Source: Pempheris klunzingeri
Lineage: Eukaryota; Chordata; Actinopteri; Acropomatiformes; Pempheridae
Reading direction: 5' to 3'
Assembly (NCBI RefSeq): GCF_042242105.1
Contig: NC_092013.1
Span: forward strand, 2,346,487 to 2,410,486
DNA: 64,000 nucleotides
Shown here one piece after another: positions 4,496-64,000 of this stretch (its first letter is position 1; each line of letters begins with the position of its first letter). The translations under genes were made by a program, and so were the position numbers. The notes beneath the pieces are model-generated. The model saw only the letters and a program-made list of their open reading frames with translations. It did not search any database and was not told where the DNA came from.

Positions 4496-7400
4496 TTATC
4501 TCTGACTGCTCTGTCCCACTGTCACACTGACCTGCACTGGTAATATCTTCACTTTATCCCAAGTGTAAATGTATGGAAACATCCTCTGAGTGAAGGTGTG
4601 TGTGAAGGTGTGTATGTGTGTGTTAGTATCAGGATCAGAGAACGACAGCTTTCCTCTGTTCCAGTCCAGATTCACTCTGATCCTCTGAGGATTCTTCTGC
4701 ACTACGAGATCAGTGGGTAGAGCTTGTGGTGAGCATGCTGAGTATTTACCATCATCGAATCTTATTCTCCAGAATCCAGACAGTATGACTCCCTTCCTCT
4801 GGACAGACTCTGCTAACAGACCCAGTAACCAGTTTGTGTTGTCTCCAACCTCGACATCCCAGCTGTGAGTCCCTGAGGTGAAGCCCTCAGATCCCAGAAC
4901 ACGTTTAAAACAATCAAACCTCTCTGGATTATCAGGAAGCTGCTGTTTCTCTCCTCCTCTCACACTGCTCAGATCTTCAGACAGGATGAGGTCTGGATGT
5001 GCAGTGTTTGGGTCCAGGATCACAGGAGAGTAGGAGACCATGTCCTTCATCTTGTTCCAGATGTTGAAGGTCAGGTTGCCCAGGTGTTTGGCCTTGTCTA
5101 TCAGAGCTCCTGAGGGCAGCTGTGGATCCTCCAGCAGGGGGCGCTGCTGGACTCTCTCCACTGCAGCCTTGTAGTTGTTCAGGAATGAGACGTCTTCAGC
5201 TCTCAGCTCCTCCTCTGTGGCTCTGACTGTGTGTGAAAGAGCTGCTATCTCTCTGCTCAGAGCCTCCATCTTCTCCTTCATCATCTGACTCTTCTGCTCC
5301 TCTTCCTCCCTCAGTGCAGCCATCCTCACCTCCTCTTCCTCTTCTAGAAACTGGTGAAGCTTCTTAAACTGCTCCTTAATCTGCCTCTCTGTCTGTCTGG
5401 CCTGGACCTTAATGTGTTTTGCTGTTTGATCAAACTTCACTTTAACTTGTTCAGAAACCTTTAACTTCTTCTTTAAAGGCTCCAGAGTTTCCTGAAGTTT
5501 CTTCTTGTGTTGTCGTGCAGCTTCATCAATTGTTCTGAATATGTGGTTGGTGTGTTTTTCTGAATCTGTGCAGATGAGACACACCAGCTGCTGATGGTCC
5601 ACACAGAAGAATTTGAGTTTCTCAGAGTGCAGACTGCAGAGAGCCTCTGAAGTCGCTTGGTTTCTGAGTGAAGCTGAAAACGCAGCAAACAGAAAGAACG
5701 GTCAGCCACAGCTCCCCTCCCTCCTCCTCAGCTCAACAACAATCAATACATGAGACATTCTTCCACAGGGCTAAAGAGAGTCACAGCCTCTGAACCGAAT
5801 GAGCAAGAACTATGAACTAAAAATAAAAGGGCTGCTTTTTTTCTTTGTTGCTTAAATGATTGTGGCATTTAACAGAGTTGCTAATTTGCCAGACTGAAAA
5901 CTCAAAGTGAGGCTGTTAGTCAGCGGTTGTGTACAGAACAAATGAGACACCGTGCTGCGGTGGCTGCTGATCCAGCACACAGCTAGTTAAAACCTCCTTT
6001 GAGCCTGCATGATACATTAAATACATTCAAATATGAATTAATATGCAATATGGCAGATGACCATCCTGTCATGTCCGAGTTCTTAGTTGCCACGGCCACA
6101 GAAAAGCGCATGCTTCTAGGGGTAGAGTTACTGAAAGGCTGTGTGTTGTGTTTGCTGCCACAGAAAAGTTTATGTAAGGTTTCTACGCCGTTTTTTAGTC
6201 TTCACAGCAGAGTTGGTCGACACTATGAAGCTAGCATTGGTTAGCAGCTACTGGTCAAGCTAAAGTCCGTTAAGGTTGCCTAAAACTGGAGGTCTCCCAA
6301 ATAATTGTTTTGCCATGACAGTACTGCTCTAAGACACCTGAGAGATGCACCTCCTCAGACTGTCTCAGTGCTGCTGAGTGTACTGTGAAATCTAACATGG
6401 AGCAGAAGGTTTTGTCAGTGCGCCAGTTTTCGTCTATCAGCTGTGGCATTCAGGCAGCCTCTCACTGCAGATTCAGACTGTGCACAAGTAACTACTAAAG
6501 CTCCAAAAGTGTTTATCACTGTGGATATGCAAACATGCACGTTCGTAGAGAAAACAGGATTTAAGCATGTGGTGACAGTTAAAGCTTTTGTGATAAATAT
6601 CATATTGTGAACTTTTTCTCATGGTATTATCATAGTTTTGGTACATCCCTGTGCTTAAGACATCCTTTTCTTCATGTTTATCCAAGAATGTATCATTCCT
6701 GAGGTATAAGACAAAGCTAAAAAAAATACCATCTTAATTTTCTAACCCTTGCTCCAAGAAAATGCTTCTTCTCCTACGTAGACTTCACTACAGTCATGAT
6801 TGGTTTGCAGGAACAAAACAGAAAGAATGAGCTTTCCAATAAATGCTACCTCCACAGGACTGGAAGGAAAAACTTTTAGTTCCAACAATAAAGTGTGATG
6901 TTAAGCTTTGAAGGTAAGACTGTGCAGGATGAGTTCACCTGGTCTCACGTCCTCCGTAAAATGATGAGGATATGATGGGCGAACTGCCGGTGCTCCAAAC
7001 ACTGCTCTAAGTGCTGCTCCAATCGGTGTGGCTGCTCCTGAAACTGAGGACATGTGGTTCATGATGTTGAGCTTCACCAGGTAACACTGACAGATGAAAC
7101 TGTTGCTATGACGCTGATTACTTTATGCAAAAACATATGTTTCAAGTTATCCTTGTTGGTTGCCTCCAATCTAAGCAGCATACCAATATTAAGGGATAAT
7201 GTACAGCAGGCCGGTCATTAGTGCAAAAATCAAGGAGTTGCAATAACGGACGCTCGCTATACATTATCCCACTTATTACACAGCTTTGTGGTAAAGAAAT
7301 CAACAATTTGATATAAAACACTGATTTAAAAATATTTCAGTCGATTTAAAAATGATTTTATTTAGATTACGATATCAGAACTGTGTCCAAAGTCCGTTAT

Positions 7401-8340
7401 ATAGAAATAACAGACTGCAGAATGCTGTAATCAACCAATCAGAATCAATTCAACAAAGCTCACCTGGTCTCACATCCTCGGTAACATAATCAAGATATGA
7501 TGGGTGACCGGCCGCTGCTCCAATCGGTGTGGCTGCTCCTGAAACTGAGGACATGTAGTTCATGATGTTGAGCTTCACCAGGTAACACTGACAGATGACT
7601 GCTTCAAGCTATCCTGGTTGGTTGCCTCAAATCTAAGCATCAATATTGATTATGCTAATTGGAGTGTCTATTGAATAACAACTGCTTTAATTAACACCAG
7701 TAACTTTTAGTCGCCACTTCAGGAGCTCACCTTGACTCACGTCCTCGGTAAGAAATGAGGGACCTGCTGCTGCTCCAACCTCTGTGGCTGCTTCTGAAAC
7801 TGAAGGCCATGATGTTAGTCTATGCTGGCTAACGTTGATAAATATAATGTCATATCATATTACTCACTTTAATATCTCATTGTCTCACACCAAGAAGTAA
7901 ATAAAAGGGAATTTAATCAGGTAGCACCATCACGCCTCTGTCCTCTCAAGGAATGATGACATTTGATGAAAATTACAAGATCAGGCCTCCATTTTTACGG
8001 TGATTACAATGATCTTCATTACTGAGAGACTCTGTTTGTTTACAGAGAAAAGAAAGAGTGACTGACCTTCTGGTTCTGAGACGGAGTCTGACAGACTCTG
8101 CACCAGATCCTTCCTGGGTATTTTCTCTAAAATCATCTTGGTTACCTTCAGAGCTCCATCAAGTTCATATGTCTTCACCATCAGAGTCACTGTGTCCAGC
8201 CCTTCTGCCTTCTCCAGTTTGGACTCTTTGATGGTTTGGTAGCCCTGCAGGATGTCGGACTGCTGCAGATACCATTTGAACTTCTTGAATTCACTGTCTC
8301 TTAATTCCTCCAGAGTGTTCAAAAGGTCCTCTGACGTCAT
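4496..8340 (-). CDS. Pyrin/TRIM20-like protein: PYD, three linker exons, B-box2, coiled coil, PRY-SPRY (gene L1)
   Basis: Five coding exons fit with GT/AG borders, all junctions phase 1: 8,340-8,067 (PYD), 7,799-7,731, 7,544-7,464 and 7,043-6,939 (linkers), 5,673-4,496 (terminal). The sum is 1,707 bases, 568 residues. The PYD (1-91) starts [15 protein letters not shown] and has the [10 protein letters not shown] helix typical of fish pyrin domains. B-box2 starts at Cys189 (CSLH, then FCVDHQQ, CLIC and a Cys/His end). The coiled coil is about 230-355 and PRY-SPRY about 394-565, with [15 protein letters not shown]. There is no RING. This is the layout of mammalian pyrin (MEFV). By family knowledge the PYD would recruit an ASC-type adaptor in the cytosol and the SPRY would bind ligand or partner. 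Orthology to MEFV is not proven, so no symbol is given. The predicted donor after the PYD is GTCAGT. Confidence 0.8.
6939..7799 (-). other. Three tandem linker exons of gene L1, 69, 81 and 105 bp
   Basis: On the minus strand, 7,799-7,731, 7,544-7,464 and 7,043-6,939 each begin after an AG with TTTCAG(A/G)AGCAGCCACA and end with GTGAG(T/A)C(A/C)AG before GTGAG(C) or GTGAAC. Each is a multiple of three and phase 1 at both ends. Their peptides are related: [26 protein letters not shown] and [13 protein letters not shown] starts, and TEDV(S/R)(Q/P)G ends. The flanking intron sequence is duplicated too (the GTTGAGCTTCACCAGGTAAC block at 7,070 and 7,570). They therefore arose by tandem exon duplication. 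They could be included or skipped without shifting frame. They would form a flexible Ala/Gly-rich spacer between PYD and B-box; no known domain is recognised. Confidence 0.7.
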
Positions 8341-10511: not shown

Positions 10512-11014
10512 TTATCTCTGACTGCTCTGTCCCACTGTCACACTGACCTGCACTGGTAATATCTTCACTGGGTGATTATCCATAGTGTAAATGTATGGAA
10601 ACATCCTCTCAGTGAAGGTGTGTGTGAAGGTGTGTATGTGTGTGTTAGTATCAGGATCAGAGAACGACAGCTTTCCTCTGTTCCAGTCCAGATTCACTCT
10701 GATCCTCTGAGGCTTCTTCTGCACCACGAGATCAGTGAATGAAGCTGGTGGTGACCGTGCTGAGTATTTACCATCATCGAATATTATTAACCAGGATCCA
10801 GACAGTGTGACTCTCTTCCTCTGGACAGACTCTGCTAACAGACCCAGTAACCAGTTTCTGTTGTCTCCAACCTCGACATCCCAGCTGTGAGTCCCTGAGG
10901 TGAAGCCCTCAGATCCCAGAACACTGAAGTAACAATCAAACCTCTCTGGATTATCAGGAAGCTGCTGTTTCTCTCCTCCTCTCAGGCTGCTCAGATCTTC
11001 AGACAGGATGAGTT
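10512..11014 (-). CDS. Stand-alone PRY-SPRY terminal exon (alternative exon or relic of a lost TRIM gene)
   Basis: On the minus strand an acceptor (TTTATTTATCCAG) at 11,015-11,020 precedes an open PRY-SPRY running from [13 protein letters not shown] to the usual VGQSSQR end. The coiled coil and B-box are absent. The sequence before the acceptor is related to the 3-prime UTR of the neighbouring family members. Its SPRY ([25 protein letters not shown]) is closest to the RING TRIM gene at 37-38.5 kb, and its downstream flank matches that gene too. It is either a truncated mirror counterpart of that gene or an alternative last exon for gene L2. Translation is only expected if L2 skips its own SPRY; no donor for that was found with confidence. 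Confidence 0.5.
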
Positions 11015-11147
11015 CTGGATAAATAAATAAATTATGAAAGGTCAGTGAAAGAAACAAACAGACAATTGTTTAACAAAAGAAAAACGTTAAATTTAGTGAC
11101 TTTCTCCCTTGAAGAAATAAATATAAATATAATCTCTGACTCCTCAG

Positions 11148-14057
11148 TCACACTGACCGTGGTAATATCTTCACTGAGAGATTATTCCAAGCGTGAATGT
11201 ATGGAAACATCCTCTCAGTGAAAGTGTGTGTGAAGGTGTGTATGTCTCTGTTAGTATCAGGATCAGAGAACGACAGCTTTCCTCTGTTCCAGTCCAGATT
11301 CACTCTGATCCTCTGAGGATTCTTCTGCACCACGAGATCAGTGACTGGAGCTGATGGTGAGAGTGCTGAGTATTTACCATTATAGAATCCTATTCTCCAG
11401 AATCCAGACTTTATGTTTCCCTTCCTCTGGACAGACTCTGCTAACAGACCCAGTGTCCACCTTGTGTTGTCTCCAACCTCAACATCCCAGCTGTGAGTCC
11501 CTGAGGTGAAGCCCTCAGATCCCAGAACACCTTGTAAACAATCAAATCTCTCTGGATTATCAGGAAGCTGCTGTTTCCCTCCTCCTCTCAGGCTGCTCAG
11601 GTCTTCAGACAGGATGAGTTGTGGATGTGCAGTGTTTGGGTCCAGGATCACAGGAGAGTAGGAGACCATGTCCTTCATCTTGTTCCAGATGTTGAAGGTC
11701 AGGTTGCCCAGGTGTTTGGCCTCGTCTATCAGAGCTCCTGAGGGCAGCTGTGGATCCTCCAGCAGGGGGCGCTGCTGGACTCTCTCCACTGCAGCCTTGT
11801 AGTTGTTCAGGAATGAGACGTCTTCAGCTCTCAGCTCCTCCTCTGTGGCTCTGACTATGTCTGAAAGAGCTGCTATCTCTCTGCTCAGAGCCTCCATCTT
11901 CTCCTTCATCATCTGACTCTTCTGCTCCTCTTCCTCCCTCAGTGCAGCCATCCTCACCTCCTCTTCCTCTTCTAGAAACTGGTGAAGCTTCTTAAACTGC
12001 TCCTTAATCTGCCTCTCTGTCTGTCTGGCCTGGACCTTAATGTGTTCTGCTGTTTGATCAAACTTCACTTTAACTTGTTCAGAAACCTTTAACTTCTTCT
12101 TTAAAGGCTTCAGAGTTTCCTGAAGTTTCTTCTTGAGTTGTCGTGCAGCTTCATCAATTGTTCTGAATATGTGGTTGGTGTGTTTTTCTGAATCTGTGCA
12201 GATGAGACACACCGGCTGCTGATGGTCCACACAGAAGAATTTGAGTTTCTCAGAGTGCAGACTGCAGAGAGCCTCTGAAGTCCTTTTGTTTCTGAGTGAA
12301 GCTGAAAACGCAGCAAACACAAAGAACAGTCAGCCACAGCTCCCCTCCCTCCTCCTCAGCTCAACAACAATCAATACATGAAATGGTCTTCCACAGGGCT
12401 AAAGAGAGTCACAGCCTCTGAACCGAATGAGCAAGAACTATGAACTAAAAATAACAAGGCTGCTATTTTTCTTTGTTGCTTAAATGATTGTGGCATTTAA
12501 CAGAGTTGCTAATTTGCCAGACTGAAAACTCAAAGTGAGGCTGTTAGTCAGCGGTTGTGTACAGAACAAATGAGACACCGTGCTGCGGTGGCTGCTGATC
12601 CAGCACACAGCTAGTTAAAACCTCCTTTGAGCCTGCATGATACATTAAATACATTCAAATATGAATTAATATGCAATATGGCAGATGACCATCCTGTCAT
12701 GTCCGTGTTTTTAGTTGCCACGGCCACAGAAAAGCGCATGCTTCTAGGGGTAGAGTTACTGAAAGGCTGTGTGTTGTGTTTGCTGCCACAGAAACGTTTA
12801 TGTAAGGTTTCTACGCCGTTTTTTAGTCTTCACAACAGAGTTGGTCGACACAATGAAGCTAGCATTGGTTAGCAGCTACTGGTCAAGCTAAAGTCTTAAG
12901 GTTGCCTAAAACTGGAGGTCTCCAAAATAATTGTTTTGCCATGGCAGTACTGCTCTAAGACACCGGAGAGATGCACCTCCTCAGACTGTCTCAGTGTTGT
13001 AACTACTAAAGCTCCAAAAGTGTTTATCACTGTGGATATGCGAACATGCACGTTCGTAGAGAAAACAGGATTTAAGCATGTGGTGACAGTTAAAGCTTTT
13101 GTGATAAATATCATATTGTGAACTTTTTCTCATGGTATTATCATAGTTTTGGTACATCCCTGTGCTTAAGACATCCTTTTCTTCATGTTTATCCAAGAAT
13201 GTATCATTCCTGAGGTATAAGACAAAGCTAAAAAATACCATCTTAATTTTCTAACCCTTGCTCCAAGAAAATGCTTCTTCTCCTACGTAGACTTCACTAC
13301 AGTCATGATTGGTTTGCAGGAACAAAACAGAAAGAATGAGCTTTCCAATAGATGCTACCTCCACAGGATTGCAAGGAAAAACTTTTAGTTCCAACAATAA
13401 AGTGTGATGTTAAGCTTTGAAGGTAAGACTGTGCAGGATGAGTTCACCTGGACTCACGTCCTCGGTAAGAAATGAGGGACCTGCTGCTGCTCCAACCTCT
13501 GTGGCTGCTTCTGAAACTGAAGGCCATGATGTTAGTCTATGCTGGCTAACGTTGATAAATATAAAGTCATATCATATTACTCACTTTAATATCTCATTGT
13601 CTCACACCAAGAAGTAAATAAAAGGGAATTTAATCAGGTAGCACCATCACGCCTCTGTCCTCTCAAAGAATGATGACATTTGATGATAATTACAAGATCA
13701 GGCCTCCATTTTTATGGTGATTACAATGATCTTCATTACTGAGAGACTCTGTTTGTTTACAGATAAAAGAAAGAGTGACTGACCTTCTGGTTCTGAGATG
13801 GCGTCTGACAGACTCTGCACCAGATCCTTCCTGGGTATTTTCTCTAAAATCATCTTGGTTACCTCCAGAGCTCCATCAAGTTTATATGTTTGTACCATCA
13901 GAGTCACTGTGTCCAGCCCTTCTGCCTTCTCCAGTTTGGACCCTTTGATGGTTTGGTAGCCCTGCAGGATGTCAGACTGCTGCAGATACCATTTGAACTT
14001 CTTGAATTCATTGTCTCTTAATTCCTCCAGAGTGTTCAAAAGGTCCTCTGACGTCAT
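11148..14057 (-). CDS. Pyrin/TRIM20-like protein: PYD, one linker exon, B-box2, coiled coil, PRY-SPRY (gene L2)
   Basis: Exons 14,057-13,784 (PYD), 13,516-13,448 (linker) and 12,301-11,148 (terminal) join in phase 1 to 1,497 bases, 498 residues. The PYD differs from L1 at a few positions ([23 protein letters not shown]). B-box2 begins at about Cys127; coiled coil and PRY-SPRY follow. Only one linker exon is present. It starts like L1 exon C ([17 protein letters not shown]) and its downstream intron is that of L1 exon A, so it is a recombination product. The C-terminus ends early with ILPRSV instead of the [16 protein letters not shown] end of its relatives, because a few bases are missing just before the normal end. 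Same proposed role as L1. Confidence 0.8.
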
Positions 14058-36935: not shown

Positions 36936-37061
36936 GTGAGTTTGACTAAAAACTGGAGTCACACTGAAAGTAAACTTCACTGTGGTTAGGAGAGAAGGGA
37001 GGGGAGCTGTGGCTGACTGTGATCCCTGTCTGCTGTGTTTTCAGCTTCACTCACAGACAAA

Positions 37062-39682: not shown

Positions 39683-39997
39683 GTGAGTCTGACTAAAGAA
39701 ACACTCAAAGTGAAAGTACATTACAGAGAAGTTAGTAGAGCAGGGAGGGGAGCCATTATTCATTCATGGTTTATCTGATAGGGACAGATGCAGTACAGCT
39801 CTCCCATGCAAGGTTCATAGTGTTTATAGTGGATGGTAACTTGCAGCTCCCGTCTTTACAAGGACTTTTATGAAAATAACAGATTGAAACAATGAGATTA
39901 ACAGAAGGTAAACTGGATACAGCAAAACACAATGAAGCACAAGTTTAAAAACCTTTCAGTCCAGAACTAGACATGAGTACAGGTTTGTTGCTGAATT

Positions 39998-44100: not shown

Positions 44101-44268
44101 AGAGGAAAGCTGTCGTTCTCTGATCCTGATACTAACACACACATACACACCTTCACACACACCTTCACTCAGAGGATGTTTCCATACATTAACACTTGGT
44201 ATAATCTCCCAATGAAGATGTTACCAGTGCAGGTCAGTGTGACAGTGGGACAGAGCAGTCAGAGATAA
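41109..44268 (+). CDS. PYD-coiled coil-PRY-SPRY protein, array unit R1
   Basis: Exons 41,109-41,382 and 43,241-44,268 join in phase 1 (AAAAG/GTCAGA donor; TTTGCTTTCAG acceptor) to 433 residues. PYD is 1-91, a coiled coil rich in Glu/Lys/Gln is about 97-220, and PRY-SPRY starts near 258. The body starts [14 protein letters not shown], so the B-box of the left genes is missing and the PYD abuts the coiled coil. R1 is the most distinct PYD of the array ([22 protein letters not shown]), and its SPRY has private changes ([19 protein letters not shown]). It is the only array gene with a leader module upstream (39.4-39.7 kb). AATAAA lies at 44,546. Role inferred: inflammasome-type sensor or adaptor modulator. 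Confidence 0.82.
41553..42388 (-). mobile_element. Rex3/RTE-like LINE fragment in the R1 intron
   Basis: The minus strand reads [40 protein letters not shown] and, later, [20 protein letters not shown], the RT and C-terminal region of fish Rex3. Stops and frame changes break it. The 3-prime end at 41,553-41,580 has the GGATAAGCAGAAGATC and (TGGA)n tail typical of Rex3. It is 5-prime truncated. The same fragment at the same place occurs in every unit, so it was inserted before the array expanded. Confidence 0.8.
43122..43127 (+). promoter_or_regulatory. TATA-like box before the R1 coiled coil-SPRY exon
   Basis: TATAAA sits in TAGGGTATAAATGAAGGGG, 114 bases before the exon 2 acceptor, and is kept at the same position in all five units. 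It could start short transcripts, but no in-frame start codon lies between it and the exon unless downstream methionines are used. Promoter activity is a guess from the motif. Confidence 0.25.
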
Positions 44269-46102: not shown

Positions 46103-49100
46103 ATGACGTCAGAGGACCTTTTGAACACTCTGGAGGAATTAAGAGACAGTGAATTCAAGAAGTTCAAATGGTATCTGCAGCAGCCCGACATCCTGCAGGG
46201 CTACCAAACCATCACAAAGTCCAAACTGGAGAGGGCAGAAAGGCTGGACACAGTGGATCTGATGGTGCAAACATATGAACTTGACGGAGCTCTGAAGGTA
46301 ACCAAGATGATTTTAGAGAAAATACCCAGGAAGGATCTGGTGCAGAGTCTGTCAGACGCCATCTCAGAACCAAAAGGTCAGAACACATTTGTGTTTCCAG
46401 ATAAAAAGAGTTGTATGACAAACAGAACTTGGAAACTATGACTGATCTTGTAATTATGAGAAAAGGTTTAAAGTTGGGGTAGGCAGCTTATTTTGAACTT
46501 TCAGCATGTTGTAATTCAAGTGGTTTGAGAGAAAGACTTTTGCACCTCCATCCATCCATCCATGATCTTCTGCTTATCCGGGGTTGAGTCTTGGTGGCAA
46601 CAGGTCAAGTAGTTCCAGACTCCCTTCTCCCAAACAATGCTTTGCAGCTCCTCCTGGGGGATCCCGAGGCGTCCCCAGGCCAGGCGAGAGATGTAATCCC
46701 TCTAGTGGGTTCTGGGTCTCCTCCTGGAGGGACATGCCCAGAAAACTTCTCAGGGGAGGCGCCCAGGAGGCATCCTGACCAGATGCCCAAACCACTGAAT
46801 TGGCTCCTTTCGATGTGAAGGAGCAGCAGCTCTTCTCCGAGCCCCTCCCGGATGTCCGAGCTCCTCACCCTATCTCTAAGGCTGAGCCCAGACACCCTTC
46901 GAAGGAAATTCATTTCAGCCGCTTGTATCTTGTTCTTTAGGTCATGACCCAGAGCTCATGACCACAGGTGAGGGTTGGAACGTAGATCGGCTGGTAAATC
47001 AATCAATCTTCACCACAACAGACTGGTACAGCGCTTGCATTACTGCTGACGCTGCACCAATCCATCTGTCCATCTCACGCTCCATTTTACCCCCACTCAT
47101 GAACAAGACCCCGAGATGCTTAAACTCCCCCACTTGGGGCAGCAACTCACTCCCAACCTAGAGGGGGCAATCCACCTTTTTCTGGCAGAGAACCACGGCC
47201 TCAGACTTAGAGGTGCTGACCCTCATCCCTTCACACTCAGCTGCAAACCGCCCCAATGCCTGCTGAAGGTCGCGGTCTGAGGAAGCCAACAGAACCACAT
47301 CGTCTGCAAAAAGCAGAGATGAAATTCTGAGATCAATGGAGGAAAGTCCTGCAGTTTCTACTCCAGCAACGACGATGACCATCTACACCCAAAGAAAGGA
47401 AGACAGGCTCATCAAACAGAGGCTGAAATTAATGTAATAAACGAGTCAGTGTCAGTGAAGATGAGCACACGACTGCAGCACGGACACTTGCACACTTGGG
47501 CACTCTCTAAATCGTGCAAGAAACTGAAGTTAGCAGCTTCAACTGATTGTGTTTGTGATCCCAATGCTGTCATACTGTGCAGCAGCAATTCTGACAATTA
47601 CCTCCCTACTTTCTTTTCAAAGGTGTGGACCTGTGAAGTCCTTTGGGATGATTTACTGTAATGTTAGCTGGCGTTAGCTACATGAACATTCTGCCACAGT
47701 TAGCACAAGGCTAAACCTTTAGCAACATCCACTCATCACCTGCTTCCACGGTATATATATGTACACAAGCTAAAACACCTAACAGCCTCTGTTAGACTCT
47801 ATTTCTTCCTTTTCCATGTTGCTTTCCACTGTAGTCAGTTGTTGTCAATGGAATAGCAACTTTTTCTGCAGGACTTTCCATCATTGGATCAGGAAACTGA
47901 AGGCATGTTCACGCTCATCAGCGCTTGAAGAACAGCCATTAGGAACGCTGTCTCTTTATCAAAGCCAAACATTCAAAAGCCCGGAAACAGCCAAGAGGAG
48001 GAGCAGAAGTCCAGTTTTCTATCTGACCACTTGAATTGCAACATGCTGAAAGGTTATCATGGATAGAATAACCTGCCTACCCCACCTCTAAGTGCACTGT
48101 GGACCAGGTTTAGGGTATAAATGAAGGGGGGTTTTGACTGTATGCTAGATAAGTAGCAGAGTGATGCAGATGCTGAGAAATTTAAGGTTGTTCTCACACA
48201 CACTGACTGTAGTTTCTGTCTGCTTTGCTTTCAGCTTCGCTCAGAGACAAGAAGAAACTTCAGGAAACTCTGGAGCCTTTAAAGAAGAAGTTAAAGGTTT
48301 TTGAAGAAGTTAAAGTGAAGTTTGATCAAACAGTAAGACACATTACGGTCCAGGCCAGACAGACAGAGAGGCAGATTAAGGAGCAGTTTAAGAAGCTTCA
48401 CCAGTTTCTGGAAAAGGAAGAGGAGGTGAGGATGGCTGCACTGAGGGAGGAAGAGGAGCAGAAGAGTCAGATGACGGAGGAGAAGATGGAGGCTCTGAGC
48501 AGAGAGATAGCAGCTCTTTCACACACAGTCAGAGCCACAGAGCAGGAGCTGAGAGCTGAAGACGTCTCATTCCTGAACAACTACAAGGCTGCAGTGGAGA
48601 GAGTCCAGCAGCGCCTCCTGCTGGAGGATCCACAGCTGCCCTCAGGAGCTCTGATAGACGAGGCCAAACACCTGGGCAACCTGACCTTCAACATCTGGAA
48701 CAAGATGAAGGACATGGTCTCCTACTCTCCTGTGATCCTGGACCCAAACACTGCACATCCAGACCTCATCCTGTCTGAAGATCTGAGCAGCGTGAGAGAA
48801 GGAGAGAAACAGCAGCTTCCTGATAATCCAGAGAGGTTTGATTATTTAAGTGTTCTTGGATCTGAGGGCTTCACCTCAGGGACTCACAGCTGGGATGTCG
48901 AGGTTGGAGACAACAGAGGATGGACACTGGGTCTGTTAGCAGAGTCTGTCCAGAGGAAGGGACGCATACAGTCTGGATTCTGGAGAATAGGACTCTATGG
49001 TGGTAAATACTCAGCCTGGTCACCATCAGCTTCATTCACTGATCTCGTAGTGCAGAAGAATCCTCAGAGGATCAGAGTGAATCTGGACTGGAACAGAGGA

Positions 49101-49262
49101 AAGCTGTCGTTCTCTGATCCTGATACTAACACACACATACACACCTTCACACACACCTTCACTCAGAGGATGTTTCCATACATTAACACTTGGTATAATC
49201 TCCCAATGAAGATGTTACCAGTGCAGGTCAGTGTGACAGTGGGACAGAGCAGTCAGAGATAA
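46103..49262 (+). CDS. PYD-coiled coil-PRY-SPRY protein, array unit R2
   Basis: Exons 46,103-46,376 and 48,235-49,262 give 433 residues with the same splice borders and phases as R1. PYD reads [35 protein letters not shown] and LSDAISEP. The coiled coil has [10 protein letters not shown] and RHITVQARQ, and the SPRY has [12 protein letters not shown] and [12 protein letters not shown]. The B-box is absent. No leader module lies upstream; the preceding 1.75 kb is the flank of R1. AATAAA lies at about 49,540. Confidence 0.8.
46547..47382 (-). mobile_element. Rex3/RTE-like LINE fragment in the R2 intron
   Basis: Same fragment and position as in R1, copied with the unit. Small base differences from R1 (for example TCTAGTGGGTT against TCCAGCGGGTT) are shared with R4. 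Confidence 0.8.
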
Positions 49263-51096: not shown

Positions 51097-54000
51097 ATGA
51101 CGTCAGAGGACCTTTTGAACACTCTGGAGGAATTAAGAGACGATGAATTCAAGAAGTTCAAATGGTATCTGCAGCAGCCCGACATCCTGCAGGGCTACCA
51201 AACCATCACAAAGTCCAAACTGGAGAGGGCAGAAAGGCTGGACACAGTGGATCTGATGGTGAAGACATATGAACTTGACGGAGCTCTGAAGGTAACCAAG
51301 ATGATTCTAGAGAAAATACCCAGGAAGGATCTGGTGCAGCGTTTGTCAGACTCCATCTCAGAACCAAAAGGTCAGAACACATTTGTGTTTCCAGATAAAG
51401 AGTTGTATGACAAACAGAACTTGGAAACTATGACTGATCTTGTAATTATGAGAAAAGGTTTAAAGTTGGGGTAGGCAGCTTATTTTGAACTTTCAGCATG
51501 TTGTAATTCAAGTGGTTTGAGAGAAAGACTTTTGCACCTCCATCCATCCATCCAAGATCTTCTGCTTATCCGGGGTTGAGTCTTGGTGGCAACAGGTCAA
51601 GCAGTTCCAGACTCCCTTCTCCCAAACAATGCTTTGCAGCTCCTCCTGGGGGATCCCGAGGCGTCCCCAGGCCAGGCGAGAGATGTTATCCCTTCAGCGG
51701 GTTCTGGGTCTCCTCCTGGAGGGACATGCCCAGAAAACCTCTCAGGGGAGGCGCCCAGGAGGCATCCTGACCAGATGCCCAAACCACTGAATTGGCTCCT
51801 TTCGATGTGCAGGAGCAGCGGCTCTTCTCCGAGCCCCTCCCGGATGTCCGAGCTCCTCACCCTATCTCTAAGGCTGAGCCCAGACACCCTTCGAAGGAAA
51901 TTCATTTCAGCCGCTTGTATCTCGTTCTTTAGGTCATGACCCAGAGCTCATGACCACAGGTGAGGGTTGGAACGTAGATCGGCTGGTAAATCAATCAATC
52001 TTCACCACAACAGACTGGTACAGCGCTTGCATTACTGCTGACGCTGCACCAATCCATCTGTCCATCTCACGCTCCATTTTACCCCCACTCATGAACAAGA
52101 CCCCGAGATGCTTAAACTCCCCCACTTGGGGCAGCAACTCACTCCCAACCTAGAGGGGGCAATCCACCTTTTTCTGGCAGAGAACCACGGCCTCAGACTT
52201 AGAGGTGCTGACCCTCATCCCTTCACACTCAGCTGCAAACCGCCCCAACGCCTCCTGAAGGTCGCGGTCTGAGGAAGCCAACAGAACCACATCATCTGCA
52301 AAAAGCAGAGATGAAATTCTGATATCAATGGAGGGAAGTCCTGCAGTTTCTACTCCAGCAACGACGACAACCATCTACACCCAAAGAAAGGAAGACAGAC
52401 TCATCAAACAGAGGCTGAAATTAATGTAATAAACGAGTCAGTGTCAGTGAAGATGAGCACACGACTGCAGCACGGACACTTGCACACTTGGGCACTCTCT
52501 AAATCGTGCAAGAAACTGAAGTTAGCAGCTTCAACTGATTGTGTTTGTGATCCCAATGCTGTCATACTGTGCAGCAGCAATTCTGACAATTACCTCCCTA
52601 CTTTCTTTTCAAAGGTGTGGACCTGTGAAGTCCTTTGGGATGATTTACTGTAATGTTAGCTGGCGTTAGCTACATGAACATTCTCCTACGGTTAGCACAA
52701 GGCTAAACCTTTAGCAACATCCACTCATCACCTGCTTCCACGGTATATATATGTACACAAGCTAAAACACCTAACAGCCTCTGTTAGACTCTATTTCTTC
52801 CTTTTCCATGTTGCTTTCCACTGTAGTCAGTTGTTGTCAATGGAATAGCAACTTTTTCTGCAGGACTTTCCGTCATTGGATCAGGAAACTGAAGGCATGT
52901 TCACGCTCATCAGCATTTGAAGAACAGCCAATAGGAGCGCTGTCTCTTTATCAAAGCCAAACATTCAAAAGCCCGGAAACAGCCAAGAGGAGGAGCAGAA
53001 GTCCAGTTTTCTATCTGACCACTTGAATTGCAACATGCTGAAAGGTTATCATGGATAGAATAACCTGCCTACCCCAGCTCTAAGTGCACTGTGGACCAGG
53101 TTTAGGGTATAAATGAAGGGGGGTTTTGACTGTATGCTAGATAAGTAGCAGAGTGATGCAGATGCTGAGAAATTTAAGGTTGTTCTCACACACACTGACT
53201 GTAGTTTCTGTCTGCTTTGCTTTCAGCTTCGCTCAGAGACAAGAACAAACTTCAGGAAACTCTGGAGCCTTTAAAGAAGAAGTTAAAGGTTTTTGAAGAA
53301 GTTAAAGTGAAGTTTGATCAAACAGCAAGACACATTACGGTCCAGGCCAGACAGACAGAGAGGCAGATTAAGGAGCAGTTTAAGAAGCTTCACCAGTTTC
53401 TGGAAAAGGAAGAGGAGGTGAGGATGGCTGCACTGAGGGAGGAAGAGCAGCAGAAGAGTCAGATGATGAAGGAGAAGATGGAGGCTCTGAGCAGAGAGAT
53501 AGCAGCTCTTTCACACACAGTCAGAGCCACAGAGGAGGAGCTGAGAGCTGAAGACGTCTCATTCCTGAACAACTACAAGGCTGCAGTGGAGAGAGTCCAG
53601 CAGCGCCTCCTGCTGGAGGATCCACAGCTGCCCTCAGGAGCTCTGATAGACGAGGCCAAACACCTGGGCAACCTGACCTTCAACATCTGGAACAAGATGA
53701 AGGACATGGTCTCCTACTCTCCTGTGATCCTGGACCCAAACACTGCACATCCACAACTCATCCTGTCTGAAGATCTGAGCAGCGTGAGAGAAGGAGAGAA
53801 ACAGCAGCTTCCTGATAATCCAGAGAGATTTGATTATTTAAGTGTTCTTGGATCTGAGGGCTTCACCTCAGGGACTCACAGCTGGGATGTCGAGGTTGGA
53901 GACAACAGAGGATGGACACTGGGTCTGTTAGCAGAGTCTGTCCAGAGGAAGGGACGCATACAGTCTGGATTCTGGAGAATAGGACTCTATGGTGGTAAAT

Positions 54001-54254
54001 ACTCAGCCTGGTCACCATCAGCTTCATTCACTGATCTCGTAGTGCAGAAGAAGCCTCAGAGGATCAGAGTGAATCTGGACTGGAACAGAGGAAAGCTGTC
54101 GTTCTCTGATCCTGACACTAACACACACATACACACCTTCACACACACCTTCACTCAGAGGATGTTTCCATACATTAACACTTGGTATAATCTCCCAGTG
54201 AAGATGTTACCAGTGCAGGTCAGTGTGACAGTGGGACAGAGCAGTCAGAGATAA
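51097..54254 (+). CDS. PYD-coiled coil-PRY-SPRY protein, array unit R3
   Basis: Exons 51,097-51,370 and 53,227-54,254 give 433 residues. PYD variants are [18 protein letters not shown] and [11 protein letters not shown] (the last as in R1). The body begins [14 protein letters not shown]. The SPRY matches R2 in its loops but has HPQLILSED and VVQKKPQ, as seen in the RING TRIM gene, which suggests mosaic exchange. The intron start has two bases fewer than R2 (ATAAAGAGTTG), a change shared with R5. No leader module lies upstream. Confidence 0.8.
51539..52374 (-). mobile_element. Rex3/RTE-like LINE fragment in the R3 intron
   Basis: Same insertion as in R1 and R2. It has private changes plus some shared with R5 (GATATCAATGGAGGGAAG). 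Confidence 0.8.
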
Positions 54255-56088: not shown

Positions 56089-59000
56089 ATGACGTCAGAG
56101 GACCTTTTGAACACTCTGGAGGAATTAAGAGACAGTGAATTCAAGAAGTTCAAATGGTATCTGCAGCAGCCCGACATCCTGCAGGGCTACCAAACCATCA
56201 CAAAGTCCAAACTGGAGAGGGCAGAAAGGCTGGACACAGTGGATCTGATGGTGCAAACATATGAACTTGACGGAGCTCTGAAGGTAACCAAGATGATTTT
56301 AGAGAAAATACCCAGGAAGGATCTGGTGCAGAGTCTGTCAGACGCCATCTCAGAACCAAAAGGTCAGAACACATTTGTGTTTCCAGATAAAAAGAGTTGT
56401 ATGACAAACAGAACTTGGAAACTATGACTGATCTTGTAATTATGAGAAAAGGTTTAAAGTTGGGGTAGGCAGCTTATTTTGAACTTTCAGCATGTTGTAA
56501 TTCAAGTGGTTTGAGAGAAAGACTTTTGCACCTCCATCCATCCATCCATGATCTTCTGCTTATCCGGGGTTGAGTCTTGGTGGCAACAGGTCAAGTAGTT
56601 CCAGACTCCCTTCTCCCAAACAATGCTTTGCAGCTCCTCCTGGGGGATCCCGAGGCGTCCCCAGGCCAGGCGAGAGATGTAATCCCTCTAGTGGGTTCTG
56701 GGTCTCCTCCTGGAGGGACATGCCCAGAAAACTTCTCAGGGGAGGCGCCCAGGAGGCATCCTGACCAGATGCCCAAACCACTGAATTGGCTCCTTTCGAT
56801 GTGAAGGAGCAGCAGCTCTTCTCCGAGCCCCTCCCGGATGTCCGAGCTCCTCACCCTATCTCTAAGGCTGAGCCCAGACACCCTTCGAAGGAAATTCATT
56901 TCAGCCGCTTGTATCTTGTTCTTTAGGTCATGACCCAGAGCTCATGACCACAGGTGAGGGTTGGAACGTAGATCGGCTGGTAAATCAATCAATCTTCACC
57001 ACAACAGACTGGTACAGCGCTTGCATTACTGCTGACGCTGCACCAATCCATCTGTCCATCTCACGCTCCATTTTACCCCCACTCATGAACAAGACCCCGA
57101 GATGCTTAAACTCCCCCACTTGGGGCAGCAACTCACTCCCAACCTAGAGGGGGCAATCCACCTTTTTCTGGCAGAGAACCACGGCCTCAGACTTAGAGGT
57201 GCTGACCCTCATCCCTTCACACTCAGCTGCAAACCGCCCCAATGCCTGCTGAAGGTCGCGGTCTGAGGAAGCCAACAGAACCACATCGTCTGCAAAAAGC
57301 AGAGATGAAATTCTGAGATCAATGGAGGAAAGTCCTGCAGTTTCTACTCCAGCAACGACGATGACCATCTACACCCAAAGAAAGGAAGACAGACTCATCA
57401 AACAGAGGCTGAAATTAATGTAATAAACGAGTCAGTGTCAGTGAAGATGAGCACACGACTGCAGCACGGACACTTGCACACTTGGGCACTCTCTAAATCG
57501 TGCAAGAAACTGAAGTTAGCAGCTTCAACTGATTGTGTTTGTGATCCCAATGCTGTCATACTGTGCAGCAGCAATTCTGACAATTACCTCCCTACTTTCT
57601 TTTCAAAGGTGTGGACCTGTGAAGTCCTTTGGGATGATTTACTGTAATGTTAGCTGGCGTTAGCTACATGAACATTCTGCCACAGTTAGCACAAGGCTAA
57701 ACCTTTAGCAACATCCACTCATCACCTGCTTCCACGGTATATATATGTACACAAGCTAAAACACCTAACAGCCTCTGTTAGACTCTATTTCTTCCTTTTC
57801 CATGTTGCTTTCCACTGTAGTCAGTTGTTGTCAATGGAATAGCAACTTTTTCTGCAGGACTTTCCATCATTGGATCAGGAAACTGAAGGCATGTTCACGC
57901 TCATCAGCGCTTGAAGAACAGCCATTAGGAACGCTGTCTCTTTATCAAAGCCAAACATTCAAAAGCCCGGAAACAGCCAAGAGGAGGAGCAGAAGTCCAG
58001 TTTTCTATCTGACCACTTGAATTGCAACATGCTGAAAGGTTATCATGGATAGAATAACCTGCCTACCCCACCTCTAAGTGCACTGTGGACCAGGTTTAGG
58101 GTATAAATGAAGGGGGGTTTTGACTGTATGCTAGATAAGTAGCAGAGTGATGCAGATGCTGAGAAATTTAAGGTTGTTCTCACACACACTGACTGTAGTT
58201 TCTGTCTGCTTTGCTTTCAGCTTCGCTCAGAGACAAGAAGAAACTTCAGGAAACTCTGGAGCCTTTAAAGAAGAAGTTAAAGGTTTTTGAAGAAGTTAAA
58301 GTGAAGTTTGATCAAACAGCAAGACACATTAAGGTCCAGGCCAGACAGACAGAGAGGCAGATTAAGGAGCAGTTTAAGAAGCTTCACCAGTTTCTGGAAA
58401 AGGAAGAGGAGGTGAGGATGGCTGCACTGAGGGAGGAAGAGGAGCAGAAGAGTCAGATGACGGAGGAGAAGATGGAGGCTCTGAGCAGAGAGATAGCAGC
58501 TCTTTCACACACAGTCAGAGCCACAGAGCAGGAGCTGAGAGCTGAAGACGTCTCATTCCTGAACAACTACAAGGCTGCAGTGGAGAGAGTCCAGCAGCGC
58601 CTCCTGCTGGAGGATCCACAGCTGCCCTCAGGAGCTCTGATAGACGAGGCCAAACACCTGGGCAACCTGACCTTCAACATCTGGAACAAGATGAAGGACA
58701 TGGTCTCCTACTCTCCTGTGATCCTGGACCCAAACACTGCACATCCAGACCTCATCCTGTCTGAAGATCTGAGCAGCGTGAGAGAAGGAGAGAAACAGCA
58801 GCTTCCTGATAATCCAGAGAGGTTTGATTATTTAAGTGTTCTTGGATCTGAGGGCTTCACCTCAGGGACTCACAGCTGGGATGTCGAGGTTGGAGACAAC
58901 AGAGGATGGACACTGGGTCTGTTAGCAGAGTCTGTCCAGAGGAAGGGACGCATACAGTCTGGATTCTGGAGAATAGGACTCTATGGTGGTAAATACTCAG

Positions 59001-59248
59001 CCTGGTCACCATCAGCTTCATTCACTGATCTCGTAGTGCAGAAGAATCCTCAGAGGATCAGAGTGAATCTGGACTGGAACAGAGGAAAGCTGTCGTTCTC
59101 TGATCCTGATACTAACACACACATACACACCTTCACACACACCTTCACTCAGAGGATGTTTCCATACATTAACACTTGGTATAATCTCCCAATGAAGATG
59201 TTACCAGTGCAGGTCAGTGTGACAGTGGGACAGAGCAGTCAGAGATAA
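56089..59248 (+). CDS. PYD-coiled coil-PRY-SPRY protein, array unit R4
   Basis: Exons 56,089-56,362 and 58,221-59,248 give 433 residues. The PYD is identical to R2 in protein. The body differs from R2 only in the coiled coil ([10 protein letters not shown] against [10 protein letters not shown]), and the SPRY is the same. R4 is therefore the second copy of R2 in the two-unit duplication. Read-through of the donor would add [12 protein letters not shown], as in R1 and R2. No leader module lies upstream. Confidence 0.8.
56533..57368 (-). mobile_element. Rex3/RTE-like LINE fragment in the R4 intron
   Basis: Same insertion as in the other units and essentially the same sequence as R2. Confidence 0.8.
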
Positions 59249-61082: not shown

Positions 61083-64000
61083 ATGACGTCAGAGGACCTT
61101 TTGAACACTCTGGAGGAATTAAGAGACGATGAATTCAAGAAGTTCAAATGGTATCTGCAGCAGTCTGACATCCTGCAGGGCTACCAAACCATCACAAAGT
61201 CCAAACTGGAGAGGGCAGAAAGGCTGGACACAGTGGATCTGATGGTGCAAACATATGAACTTGACGGAGCTCTGAAGGTAACCAAGATGATTTTAGAGAA
61301 AATACCCAGGAAGGATCTGGTGCAGAGTCTGTCAGACGCCATCTCAGAACCAAAAGGTCAGAACACATTTGTGTTTCCAGATAAAGAGTTGTATGACAAA
61401 CAGAACTTGGAAACTATGACTGATCTTGTAATTATGAGAAAAGGTTTAAAGTTGGGGTAGGCAGCTTATTTTGAACTTTCAGCATGTTGTAATTCAAGTG
61501 GTTTGAGAGAAAGACTTTTGCACCTCCATCCATCCATCCAAGATCTTCTGCTTATCCGGGGTTGAGTCTTGGTGGCAACAGGTCAAGTAGTTCCAGACTC
61601 CCTTCTCCCAAACAATGCTTTCCAGCTCCTCCTGGGGGATCCCGAGGCGTCCCCAGGCCAGGCGAGAGATGTAATCCCTCTAGCGGGTTCTGGGTCTCCT
61701 CCTGGAGGGACATGCCCAGAAAACCTCTCAGGGGAGGCGCCCAGGAGGCATCCTGACCAGATGCCCGAACCACTGAATTGGCTACTTTCGATGTGAAGGA
61801 GCAGCGGCTCTTCTCCGAGCCCCTCCCGGATGTCCGAGCTCCTCACCCTATATCTAAGGCTCTCTGGAAAGTAGATTGGCTGGTAAATCAATCAATCTTC
61901 ACCACAACAGACCGGTACAGCGCTCGCATTACTGCTGACGCTGCACCAATCCATCTGTCCATCTCACGCTCCATTTTACCCCCACTCATGAACAAGACCC
62001 CGAGATGCTTAAACTCCCCCACTTGGGGCAGCAACTCACTCCCAACCTAGAGGGGGCAATCCACCTTTTTCTAGCAGAGAACCACGGCCTCAGACTTAGA
62101 GGTGCTGACCCTCATCCCTTCACACTCAGCTGCAAACCGCCCCAACGCCTGCTGAAGGTCGCAGTCTGAGGAAGCCAACAGAACCACATCATCTGCAAAA
62201 AGCAGAGATGAAATTCTGATATCAATGGAGGGAAGTCCTGCAGTTTCTACTCCAGCAACGACGACAACCATCTACACCCAAAGAAAGGAAGACAGACTCA
62301 TCAAACAGAGGCTGAAATTAATGTAATAAACGAGTCAGTGTCAGTGAAGATGAGCACACGACTGCAGCACGGACACTTGCACACTTGGGCACTCTCTATA
62401 TCGTGCAAGAAACTGAAGTTAGCAGCTTCAACTGATTGTGTTTGTGATCCCAATGCTGTCATACTGTGCAGCAGCAATTCTGACAATTACCTCCCTACTT
62501 TCTTTTCAAAGGTGTGGACCTGTGAAGTCCTTTGGGATGATTTACTGTAATGTTAGCTGGCGTTAGCTACATGAACATTCTCCTACGGTTAGCACAAGGC
62601 TAAACCTTTAGCAAATCCACTCATCACCTGCTTCCATGGTATATATATGTACACAAGCTAAAACACCTAACAGCCTCTGTTAGACTCTATTTCTTCCTTT
62701 TCCATGTTGCTTTCCACTGTAGACAGTTGTTGTCAATGGAATAGCAACTTTTTCTGCAGGACTTTCCGTCATTGGATCAGGAAACTGAAGGCATGTTCAC
62801 GCTCATCAGCATTTGAAGAACAGCCAATAGGAGCGCTGTCTCTTTATCAAAGCCAAACATTCAAAAGCCCGAAAACAGCCAAGAGGAGGATAAGAAGTCC
62901 AGTTTTCTATCTGACCACTTGAATTGCAACATGCTGAAAGGTTATCATGGATAGAATAACCTGCCTACCCCACCTCAAGTGCACTGTGGACCAGGTTTAG
63001 GGTATAAATGAAGGGGGGTTTTGACTGTATGCTAGATAAGTAGCAGAGTGATGCAGATGCTGAGAAATTTAAGGTTGTTCTCACACACACTGAGTGTAGT
63101 TTCTGTCTGCTTTGCTTTCAGCTTCGCTCAGAGACAAGAACAAACTTCAGGAAACTCTGGAGCCTTTAAAGAAGAAGTTAAAGGTTTTTGAAGAAGTTAA
63201 AGTGAAGTTTGATCAAACAGCAAAACACATTAAGATCCAGGCCAGACAGACAGAGAGGCAGATTAAGGAGCAGTTTAAGAAGCTTCACCAGTTTCTAGAA
63301 GAGGAAGAGGAGGTGAGGATGGCTGCACTGAGGGAGGAAGAGGAGCACAAGAGTCAGATGATGAAGGAGAAGATGGAGGCTCTGAGCAGAGAGATAGCAG
63401 CTCTTTCACACACAGTCAGAGCCACAGAGGAGGAGCTGAGAGCTGAAGACGTCTCATTCCTGAACAACTACAAGGCGGCAGTGGAGAGAGTCCAGCAGCG
63501 CCCCCTGCTGGAGGATCCACAGCTGCCCTCAGGAGCTCTGATAGACGAGGCCAAACACCTGGGCAACCTGACCTTCAACATCTGGAACAAGATGAAGGAC
63601 ATGGTCTCCTACTCTCCTGTGATCCTGGACCCAAACACTGCACATCCAGGACTCATCCTGTCTGAAGATCTGAGCAGCCTGAGACGAGGAGAGAAACAGC
63701 AGCTTCCTGATAATCCAGAGAGGTTTGATTGTTTTAAACGTGTTCTTGGATCTGAGGGCTTCACCTCAGGGACTCACAGCTGGGATGTCGAGGTTGGAGA
63801 CAACACAGGCTGGTTTTTGGGTCTGTTAGCAGAGTCTGTCCAGAGGAAGGGAGTCGTACTATTGGAAGTCTGGTTAATAAGATTCTATGATGGTAAATAC
63901 TCAGCACTCTCACCACCAGCTTCATTCACTGATCTCGTAGTGCAGAAGAAGCCTCAGAGGATCAGAGTGAATCTGGACTGGAACAGAGGAAAGCTGTCGT
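61083..64000 (+). CDS. PYD-coiled coil-PRY-SPRY protein, array unit R5, cut by window end
   Basis: Exon 61,083-61,356 (PYD) and an exon starting at 63,122 that stays open to position 64,000. The PYD has RDDEFKKF as in R3 but LSDAISEP as in R2/R4, so it is a mosaic. The body starts [14 protein letters not shown] without a B-box. Its SPRY is unlike the other array units: [38 protein letters not shown] and [12 protein letters not shown]. The FDCFKRVLG stretch matches left gene L1. About 30 residues of the family C-terminus should lie beyond the window. The adjoining intron LINE is shortened by about 93 bases. Confidence 0.78.
61525..62271 (-). mobile_element. Rex3/RTE-like LINE fragment in the R5 intron, internally deleted
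   Basis: Same insertion as in R1-R4, but about 93 bases are missing near 61,860. There CTAAGGCTCTCTGGAAAGTA replaces the longer stretch of the other copies. Confidence 0.8.

Follow-up and report, generated by a model that had tools for sequence, protein, structure and literature searches.

The locus appears to be a record of RING TRIM genes that were converted into pyrin-like genes, a reading which is given a probability of roughly three in four and in which splicing, exchange and function are predicted from the DNA. The window (the whole stretch analyzed, 64,000 nucleotides) lies on contig C2 and was compared with two other contigs, C3 and C5. Here, U is a 5' segment, a body is the exon bearing the coiled coil (CC) and SPRY, and L and R are the left-hand (-) and right-hand (+) PYD genes, respectively. 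The C2 family is presumably trim35/hltr. The following features were recorded in the window:

1..231 (-): U copy belonging to the next PYD gene (L013), which has its PYD and body beyond the window
4496..5673 (-): body L1, B-box-CC-PRY/SPRY, RING deleted
5711..5722 (-): second AGGGAGGGGAGC, directly upstream of the L1 acceptor
8067..8340 (-): PYD exon L1
9226..9505 (-): L1 copy of U; its junction repeat has a single mismatch
10512..11020 (-): SPRY-only remnant
11148..12301 (-): body L2, B-box-CC-PRY/SPRY, RING deleted, old ATG now AGG, variant C-terminus
12339..12350 (-): second AGGGAGGGGAGC, directly upstream of the L2 acceptor
13784..14057 (-): PYD exon L2
15440..15719 (-): L2 copy of U, terminating in AGGGAGGGGAGC
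36721..36995 (+): U of the RING gene, a putative 5'UTR exon; GTGAGT occurs at 36859 and at 36936, and the second would yield a putative intron of 109 nt
36996..37007 (+): AGGGAGGGGAGC of the RING gene, where the insertion site is empty and uninterrupted
37045..38462 (+): RING-B-box-CC-PRY/SPRY body exon; acceptor 37044/37045, leader 17 nt, ATG 37062
39471..39753 (+): U copy of the R1 gene, separated by the PYD segment, with AGGGAGGGGAGC at its end (39742-39753)
41109..41382 (+): PYD exon R1; of 8 diagnostic sites, 6 are L-like and 2 R-like (139 and the last, 271)
43241..44268 (+): body R1, CC-PRY/SPRY, without RING and B-box
46103..46376 (+): PYD exon R2
48235..49262 (+): body R2
51097..51370 (+): PYD exon R3
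53227..54254 (+): body R3
56089..56362 (+): PYD exon R4
58221..59248 (+): body R4
61083..61356 (+): PYD exon R5
63122..64000 (+): body R5, continuing past the window end (L014); its relaxed diagnostic sites are, in order, two R-type, 15 L-type and 3 R-type

All eight body exons in the window were preceded by a (T)TTTCAG acceptor and opened with CTTC(A/G)CTC in one frame, as the sequence-only reading had claimed (acceptors at 37,045 in the RING gene and at 43,241, 48,235, 53,227, 58,221, and 63,122 on the plus strand; 5,673 and 12,301 on the minus strand). The phase-1 end that it had given for each PYD exon was found in 7/7, with 274 coding bases before the putative donor, and the virtual splice from PYD to body was open in all seven, one of which (R5) is truncated by the window end. 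In the RING gene, the acceptor was located where it had been placed, six in-frame codons upstream of the Met (A S L T D K M). A frame match by itself is weak evidence (chance is estimated at about 1 in 4); chance resemblance of the acceptors was ruled out by aligning acceptor and leader between the RING gene and the PYD genes. The three body types form one family, as had been proposed: the homologous acceptor aligns, and in CC-SPRY DNA the RING gene shares 94–96% identity with the seven PYD-gene bodies.

Six proteins were scanned against Pfam. PYRIN was matched in the two PYDs tested (2.5e-22 and 6.4e-24), and in the RING gene RING, B-box, PRY, and SPRY all passed, with the coiled coil under the cut-off. 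Both left bodies carried B-box, PRY, and SPRY, and the one right body scanned carried PRY and SPRY without B-box; TRIM_CC was under the cut-off in 4/4 bodies. No RING match was found in the PYD genes. The L2 C-terminus differs from that of the other bodies and is shorter. The SPRY-only remnant (10512-11020, minus strand) shares 97% identity with the RING gene in its 3' flank and is probably what is left of a broken RING gene.

The PYD exons and the bodies could also belong to separate genes, the former read through as PYD-only decoys (POP-like) and the latter being decaying TRIM fragments. The PYD reading frames in the window each extend beyond the donor and then stop (115–128 aa in total), and the donors, GTCAGT or GTCAGA, are off consensus, both of which agree with such decoys. 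However, leader and B-box of the C2 PYD-gene bodies are open and contain no start codon; the first Met falls within the coiled coil, which means that a coding exon is needed upstream of them. Phases are moreover compatible in every PYD-body pair of the window, and the pairing with RING loss recurs at another TRIM cluster. Separate genes are considered highly unlikely.

Judged by its RING-only paralogues, which set the direction from RING TRIM to pyrin-like gene, the RING gene represents the older condition. U is continuous to acceptor and ATG in the RING gene and in six of the seven C2/C5 RING paralogues examined (L013, L031, L032, L033, L034, and L036), the exception being the more distant L035, in which the match to U spans 32 nt only. 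The RING genes read comprised 7 of the 16 close C2/C5 genes (the RING gene, RING2 in L013, L031–L034, and L036), the distant L035, and three on C3 (L037–L039; L039 without its start). In the PYD genes, 3–7 kb with the PYD exon now separates U from the body acceptor. The 12-bp repeat AGGGAGGGGAGC stands at either end of the PYD-bearing segment in the left-hand genes; the right-hand genes are without the second repeat, and R2–R5 are without a U of their own. Across 331 aligned bases, the L2 flanks joined over the repeat match the RING gene at 91% identity; the R1 left flank joined to the L1 right flank does so at 86% across 333. The first half of the L2 U copy is RING-like, and the second half resembles the copies of other PYD genes.

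It had been suggested that a RING TRIM becomes pyrin-like by PYD gain alone. This is not supported, as each conversion was accompanied by an in-frame loss of RING (78 codons) or of RING and B-box (129 codons), short repeats marking the break points, and gain of the PYD exon is therefore not the whole step. The PYD exon has its own acceptor-like TTTTAG 12 nt upstream of its ATG and a phase-1 donor; the bodies of the PYD genes have lost the old ATG, and what was 5'UTR lies in an open coding frame. True intermediates with PYD plus RING were not seen, as 0/12 PYD-TRIM genes found keep RING and the RING gene has no PYD match upstream. A PYD exon belonging to the RING gene was rejected: no PYD match was found between 14.1 and 41.1 kb, and relaxed tblastn added none. 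Relaxed tblastn for RING and B-box relics returned nothing beyond chance (best E 0.21 and 0.03).

The polarity could be the reverse, with a PYD-RING-B-box-CC-SPRY ancestor and a RING gene that lost the PYD segment via deletion between the 12-bp repeats, since a direct-repeat deletion gives an identical single-repeat junction. Against this, none of the 16 close RING genes on C2 and C5 has an upstream PYD exon, the C2 PYD matches are confined to the window's cluster (10 of at least 70 genome matches), and no PYD gene found has kept RING. In a C5 paralogue, an in-frame stop directly precedes the ATG, so its leader is non-coding. Reverse polarity is considered even less probable than separate genes.

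Across the genome, RING was missing in all of the PYD-TRIM genes found (at least 12; 12/12) and PYD in all of the close RING relatives found (at least 38; 38/38); the genome counts are lower bounds, as one scan scored 150 of 401 candidates and another 150 of 193. The 14 close RING genes outside the window's cluster had no adjacent PYD. Neighbors were read for 18 of the 60 PYD matches outside the C2 cluster (17 in L017–L030, 1 in L041). A Walker A pattern was absent from L011–L016, which adjoin the window, whereas 6 of the 14 further PYD loci that were read had one. C5 offered a candidate for a third PYD-TRIM pair, which was rejected, as a NACHT-type frame lies downstream of that PYD. The viral-contig scan confirmed no relative.

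On C3, at least 24 TRIM paralogues were found, and among these RING was missing only in the two with a PYD exon (break point taken from the L038 protein). Acceptor and frame were compatible in these pairs, as on C2. In both cases, the first PYD donor has decayed (GTCACA), and a later donor was therefore assumed; the C3 bodies retain the ATG, so the missing-start argument is void for them. Because this cluster shows the same remodeling, the PYD-TRIM design, PYD gain with RING loss, is read as having arisen at least twice in this genome. These findings suggest that PYD and RING are incompatible within one TRIM.

The body phylogeny, proposed earlier as a check, placed the RING gene among the PYD genes as expected, though weakly (69/85), and by this placement unrelated TRIM clades are excluded. 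In AU tests of the body tree, PYD-CC and PYD-Bbox were each rejected as one clade (p 9.9e-5 and 6.3e-4), a single RING clade was borderline (p 0.053), and a single clade of all PYD bodies was not rejected (p 0.17). L2 and R6 were sisters (100/99) despite their different architecture. The U tree was split by architecture with one change, weakly (74/51), and the PYD tree had long branches and an unreliable deep order. Conflict was observed in 46% of informative-site pairs (38 sites, 6 bodies); simulations without recombination gave a mean of 7–31%, and 0/500 per setting (five settings) reached 46% with at least 30 sites. By the AU tests, the bodies are unsorted by architecture, as if swapped among genes, other recombination tests being mixed. 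The architectures had been called interchangeable, which may be right in another sense, that of body exchange.

The bodies could instead be young duplicates without exchange, their conflicting sites being parallel changes due to diversifying selection or hot spots. The PHI test detected no distance-dependent recombination (p 0.53–0.92 for bodies, 0.09 for PYD), pN/pS was 5.9 in SPRY codons 226–250, and the unrejected single PYD clade points the same way. Under very strong rate variation, some simulations exceeded 46%, albeit with fewer informative sites (95% quantile 0.52, alpha 0.05); the fitted gamma shape was 0.02 for the CC, SPRY, and PYD trees. In 28 of the 35 body pairs having dS above zero, dN/dS was at least 1, a result compatible with diversifying selection as well as with relaxed constraint. 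On the other hand, dS between RING, left, and right bodies is 0.01–0.07, yet left and right introns do not align; two architecture groups were rejected as clades, and the R1 PYD and the R5 body look chimeric. Absence of exchange is considered unlikely, to a lesser degree than the two alternatives above.

The preferred reading is conversion with body exchange. As the sequence shows, the older unit consists of U, followed by a small 5' intron (putative) and by a RING-B-box-CC-SPRY exon with its acceptor 17 nt upstream of the ATG. A PYD-bearing segment came to lie inside the 5' intron, perhaps by retroposition, template switching or another mode, and in the left-hand genes the 12-bp repeat stands on either side of it. 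RING, or RING and B-box, is missing in frame, the old ATG has been lost, and the former 5'UTR reads as coding. U would be transcribed and joined by splicing to the PYD exon, and from there to the body; the single U at 39.47 kb may serve all five right-hand PYD-body cassettes via alternative splicing. If body exons were swapped between genes, one SPRY receptor repertoire would feed two outputs, an E3 ligase in the RING genes and a death-fold platform in the PYD genes. In the latter, the SPRY would sense, the coiled coil assemble, and the PYD seed PYD/ASC filaments, and RING loss would stop the receptor from ubiquitinating itself or its partners.

A wider generalization is put forward tentatively, at somewhat less than even odds: PYD gain with RING loss would be a repeatable, rule-like route from RING TRIMs to inflammasome-type receptors, in which phase-1 NLR-type PYD exons enter TRIM 5' regions that have an acceptor in frame at the ATG, PYD and RING are mutually exclusive, and SPRY exons are converted between E3 and PYD versions. 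If true, a pathogen-binding SPRY variant could be switched from 'ubiquitinate' to 'inflame'.

Pyrin (MEFV, TRIM20) of tetrapods is derived from a TRIM and begins with a death fold; it consists of PYD, (B-box), coiled coil and B30.2 and has no RING. The PYD genes of the window are similar in PYD, B30.2 and lack of RING, the join of PYD and body being inferred; their coiled coil is predicted, and a B-box is present in the left bodies. The solved chain closest to a window PYD was the pyrin PYD (E 1.3e-8); the SPRY was closer to butyrophilins than to pyrin. Unlike pyrin, the right-hand genes additionally have no B-box, and the bodies derive from local RING TRIMs, as their 94–96% CC-SPRY identity indicates. 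In pyrin, a long linker between PYD and B-box carries regulatory serines. For human pyrin, the abstract of PMC10653879 mentions S208 and S242. In the virtual splice, about ten residues separate PYD from B-box, and there is no long linker. Compared within this genome, the fusion does not appear to stem from common descent with tetrapod MEFV, its body coming from local RING TRIMs. According to passages of two reviews, the pyrin gene postdates the fish-tetrapod split, zebrafish lacking it (PMC6721725), and pyrin is absent from teleosts (PMC9978379); the lineage would thus gain pyrin-like candidates, though these reviews, in those passages, list none for zebrafish or teleosts.

Among fish class IV TRIM families (finTRIM, btr, trim35/hltr), the RING gene has the usual RING-B-box-CC-B30.2 order, and the PYD genes lack RING. 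Passages of PMC3137616 and PMC2657112 describe this order, clustered copies, and fast SPRY loops for fish class IV TRIMs, and in the former GARD detected no recombination in zebrafish trim35/hltr. The changes described in the portions of the literature consulted are domains newly added at the C-terminus, a single case in which B-box and coiled coil were lost, and shuffling of B30.2; the window differs by its N-terminal PYD and RING loss. As in fish NLR-B30.2/NLR-C genes (observed in L018–L021), the PYD exons have an acceptor directly before the ATG and end in phase 1, but in the window the PYD is partnered with a TRIM body. According to passages of Howe et al. 2016 (PMC4852459), B30.2 was spread among fish NLR-B30.2 groups through gene conversion; the same authors proposed that human pyrin arose by recombination of an NLR and a neighboring TRIM at the base of tetrapods. 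A build similar to that proposed for pyrin, the protein of familial Mediterranean fever, is legible here in young sequence, with the empty insertion site preserved beside it, and this turns a guess into a testable model. As read from the C2 and C3 clusters, this genome shows at least two events of the NLR-TRIM kind that Howe et al. proposed.

One RING-B-box-CC-PRY/SPRY gene was found in the window (C2:2346487-2410486; assembly size 646 Mb), together with two PYD + B-box-CC-PRY/SPRY genes (L1 and L2) on the minus strand of the left part and five PYD + CC-PRY/SPRY genes (R1–R5) in the right part, where the unit was ~5 kb and the fifth gene was truncated by the window end. The flanks contributed a second RING gene and three more PYD genes: two of the PYD-B-box type and one, R6, that is the sixth of the PYD-CC type and has a more divergent PYD (70%). 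No RING match was obtained in the ten PYD genes of this chromosome C2 cluster (window and flanks). The exon carrying the (RING/B-box)-CC-PRY/SPRY part is called the body, and the putative 5'UTR exon segment before the RING acceptor is called U. The features of the cluster are listed by window position, or by position in the flanking stretches L012 and L014:

2307-2678 (+), 16510-17115 (-), 17795-18310 (-): reverse-transcriptase fragments (mobile elements)
11148-12301 (-): L2, with B-box
24631-21681 (-): two eIF6-matching frames in the stretch separating the left array from the right; one passes the Pfam cut-off and the other falls below it
30176-31443: repetitive frames encoding WATVGYSGLQ-like repeats, probably a minisatellite
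37045..38462 (+): body exon of the RING gene
39471: U copy of R1, on the right
40008-40407: ~400 bp upstream of the R1 PYD, 89–97% like stretches at four other PYD loci (L020, L024, L025, and L027); perhaps a mobile element
44.3-61 kb: right-hand units R2–R5, with no U copy
L012:2511-2431 (-): remnant of a PYD (28 aa, 64%), where the cluster begins on its left side
L014:1432-1714: U copy of R6, on the right
L014:8458-9446: R6, without B-box

The sequence-only reading held that all architectures share one body acceptor and that PYD exons end in phase 1, and both points were borne out: 8/8 window bodies began with (T)TTTCAG followed by CTTC(A/G)CTC, and all seven PYD exons ended in phase 1, with the frame kept across the virtual splice in each. 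Acceptor-like TTTTAG sits 12 nt before the PYD exon's own ATG, so the exon looks like an internal cassette exon. The first Met of the left and right bodies falls within the coiled coil; the leader and B-box therefore need an upstream coding exon.

U covers ~290 bp immediately before the RING acceptor. It contains GTGAGT words that are conserved; the one closer to the acceptor is 109 nt upstream of it. L1, L2, and R1 have a U copy 0.9–1.4 kb upstream of the PYD exon; its likeness to the RING gene ends at AGGGAGGGGAGC (one mismatch in L1). In the left genes, these 12 bases occur again immediately upstream of the body acceptor, and from there the likeness restarts. When joined across the repeat, the L2 flanks shared 91% identity with the RING gene in an alignment of 331 bases; a join of the R1 left flank and the L1 right flank matched it at 86% over 333. 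U was looked for in seven RING paralogues from C2 and C5: the match was unbroken through the acceptor and ATG in six (93–98% in L013, L031, L032, L033, and L036; 74% in L034) and covered 32 nt only in the more distant L035. In L034, the C5 paralogue, a stop codon in frame immediately precedes the ATG, so its leader is non-coding. These observations establish the order, with the RING state first and the PYD inserted later.

The left leaders align with the RING leader through the former ATG (AGG in L2, GCG in L1) and resume at the pre-B-box (G/A)CTTC; counted on the sequences, the left genes have lost 234 bp (78 codons) in frame, between a pair of GCTTC words. The right leaders end at the ACAA just before the ATG and resume after the ACAA preceding the coiled coil, with 387 bp (129 codons, counted likewise) missing.

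A different TRIM family on chromosome C3 had, among the matches listed, 24 close members (C3:1438462 to 1807335): 22 frames of 556–563 aa, each with a RING hit, and two frames that were shorter (497 and 481 aa) and had no RING. These two were the ones with an upstream PYD exon (L017 and L022). In them, 2 nt separate the acceptor from the ATG. The first donor of the PYD exon has decayed; use of a later one would put the acceptor in frame with this phase-1 exon. Counted on the sequences, both lack 81 codons comprising the RING, which the RING relatives carry between RSE and SSEQQ. With the RING relative L038 as reference, the L022 PYD segment is bordered by a repeated sequence of ~32 bp, the left copy of which was not seen at L017. 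Among the matches listed for both families, 12/12 PYD-TRIM genes were without RING, and none of 38 close RING relatives (16 on C2/C5 with at least 88% identity, 22 on C3) had its own PYD exon; the genome candidates scored were 150 of 401 and 150 of 193, and the counts are lower bounds. The genes are duplicates, so PYD gain with RING loss counts as two independent events.

An NLR source of the PYD exon appears likely from the likeness of exon start and phase, short matches to other PYD loci, and NACHT near 6 of 14 loci. The PYD exons of L018–L021 start in the same way (CAG, 12 nt, ATG) and likewise end in phase 1. Stretches of 47–53 bases, located 33–83 nt before the L1 PYD exon, matched L023, L024, and L025 at 85–89%, L023 carrying a NACHT frame. 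The L1 intron also matched L026, over 81 bases at 86%. Outside C2, 14 PYD loci (L017–L030) were read; six had the NACHT Walker A pattern, two a TRIM body, and six neither within the stretch examined. In the PYD tree, the L017 and L022 exons fell together with NLR PYDs from their own chromosome (support 97/93). At L023 (C3:1396000-1405999; minus strand, 5545-5114, 4603-4214, and 3693-1801), a frame encoding a RING, its leader resembling those of the C3 TRIMs, precedes a PYD exon and a NACHT frame, a possible RING-PYD-NLR chimera from a reverse exchange.

CC-SPRY DNA identity between the RING, left, and right genes was 93–96% (dS 0.01–0.07, SPRY-only fragment excluded); despite this low dS, the introns of left and right genes did not align. 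L2 and R6, of unlike architectures, were sisters (100/99) in the body tree including paralogues and have a common variant, shortened C-terminus, which may mark exchange or common origin of the 3' halves. As a single clade, each PYD architecture was rejected (p 9.9e-5 and 6.3e-4). The test was borderline for a clade of the RING genes (p 0.053) and did not reject a clade of all PYD genes (p 0.17). RING and PYD genes were separated in the U tree by one change, with weak support (74/51). Conflict affected 46% of pairs of informative sites, as against means of 7–31% in recombination-free simulations (500 runs in each of five settings), none of which reached 46% with 30 or more informative sites; very strong rate variation gave some runs above 46%, but with fewer sites. 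The PHI recombination test was not significant. Bodies that were simply young duplicates, with parallel changes at the conflicting sites, would need no exchange, and the simulated conflict does depend on the assumed rate variation. Set against this dependence and the PHI result, the clade rejections and site conflict make exchange of bodies between architectures likely, without resolution into tracts, and its absence less likely. The R1 PYD exon was L-like at 6/8 diagnostic sites and R-like at two, including the last, with an L-like upstream flank and R-like intron; at relaxed diagnostic sites, the R5 body was R-type at the first two, and then L-type at 15 and R-type at 3. Both are likely chimeras, judging from these site patterns. 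Replacement changes were densest at SPRY codons 226–250 (pN/pS 5.9), and dN/dS was at least 1 in 28/35 body pairs.

In the preferred reading (probability about 0.76), RING TRIMs were remodelled into pyrin-like genes by PYD insertion and in-frame RING loss, with the SPRY repertoire shared by two outputs. U would serve as the 5' exon, and the PYD genes would yield PYD-(B-box)-CC-SPRY proteins in which the SPRY loops would bind the target, the coiled coil would dimerise, and the PYD might seed filaments with ASC-like partners; the RING genes would apply the same SPRY repertoire to ubiquitination. That PYD gain with RING loss is a repeatable route from TRIM to inflammasome-type receptor, with SPRY exons converted between versions, is proposed tentatively, at slightly under even odds.

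Tetrapod pyrin has the layout of the PYD-(B-box)-CC-SPRY genes described here, and a gene named mefv exists in zebrafish. Two articles describe zebrafish (PMC6721725) and teleosts (PMC9978379) as having no pyrin gene. Among the matches listed in the accessible open literature, there was no fish PYD-TRIM gene like these. Human pyrin was suggested by Howe et al. 2016 (PMC4852459) to stem from an NLR-TRIM type of recombination. The window genes differ from tetrapod pyrin in that the fused body is of local origin and a long linker is absent.
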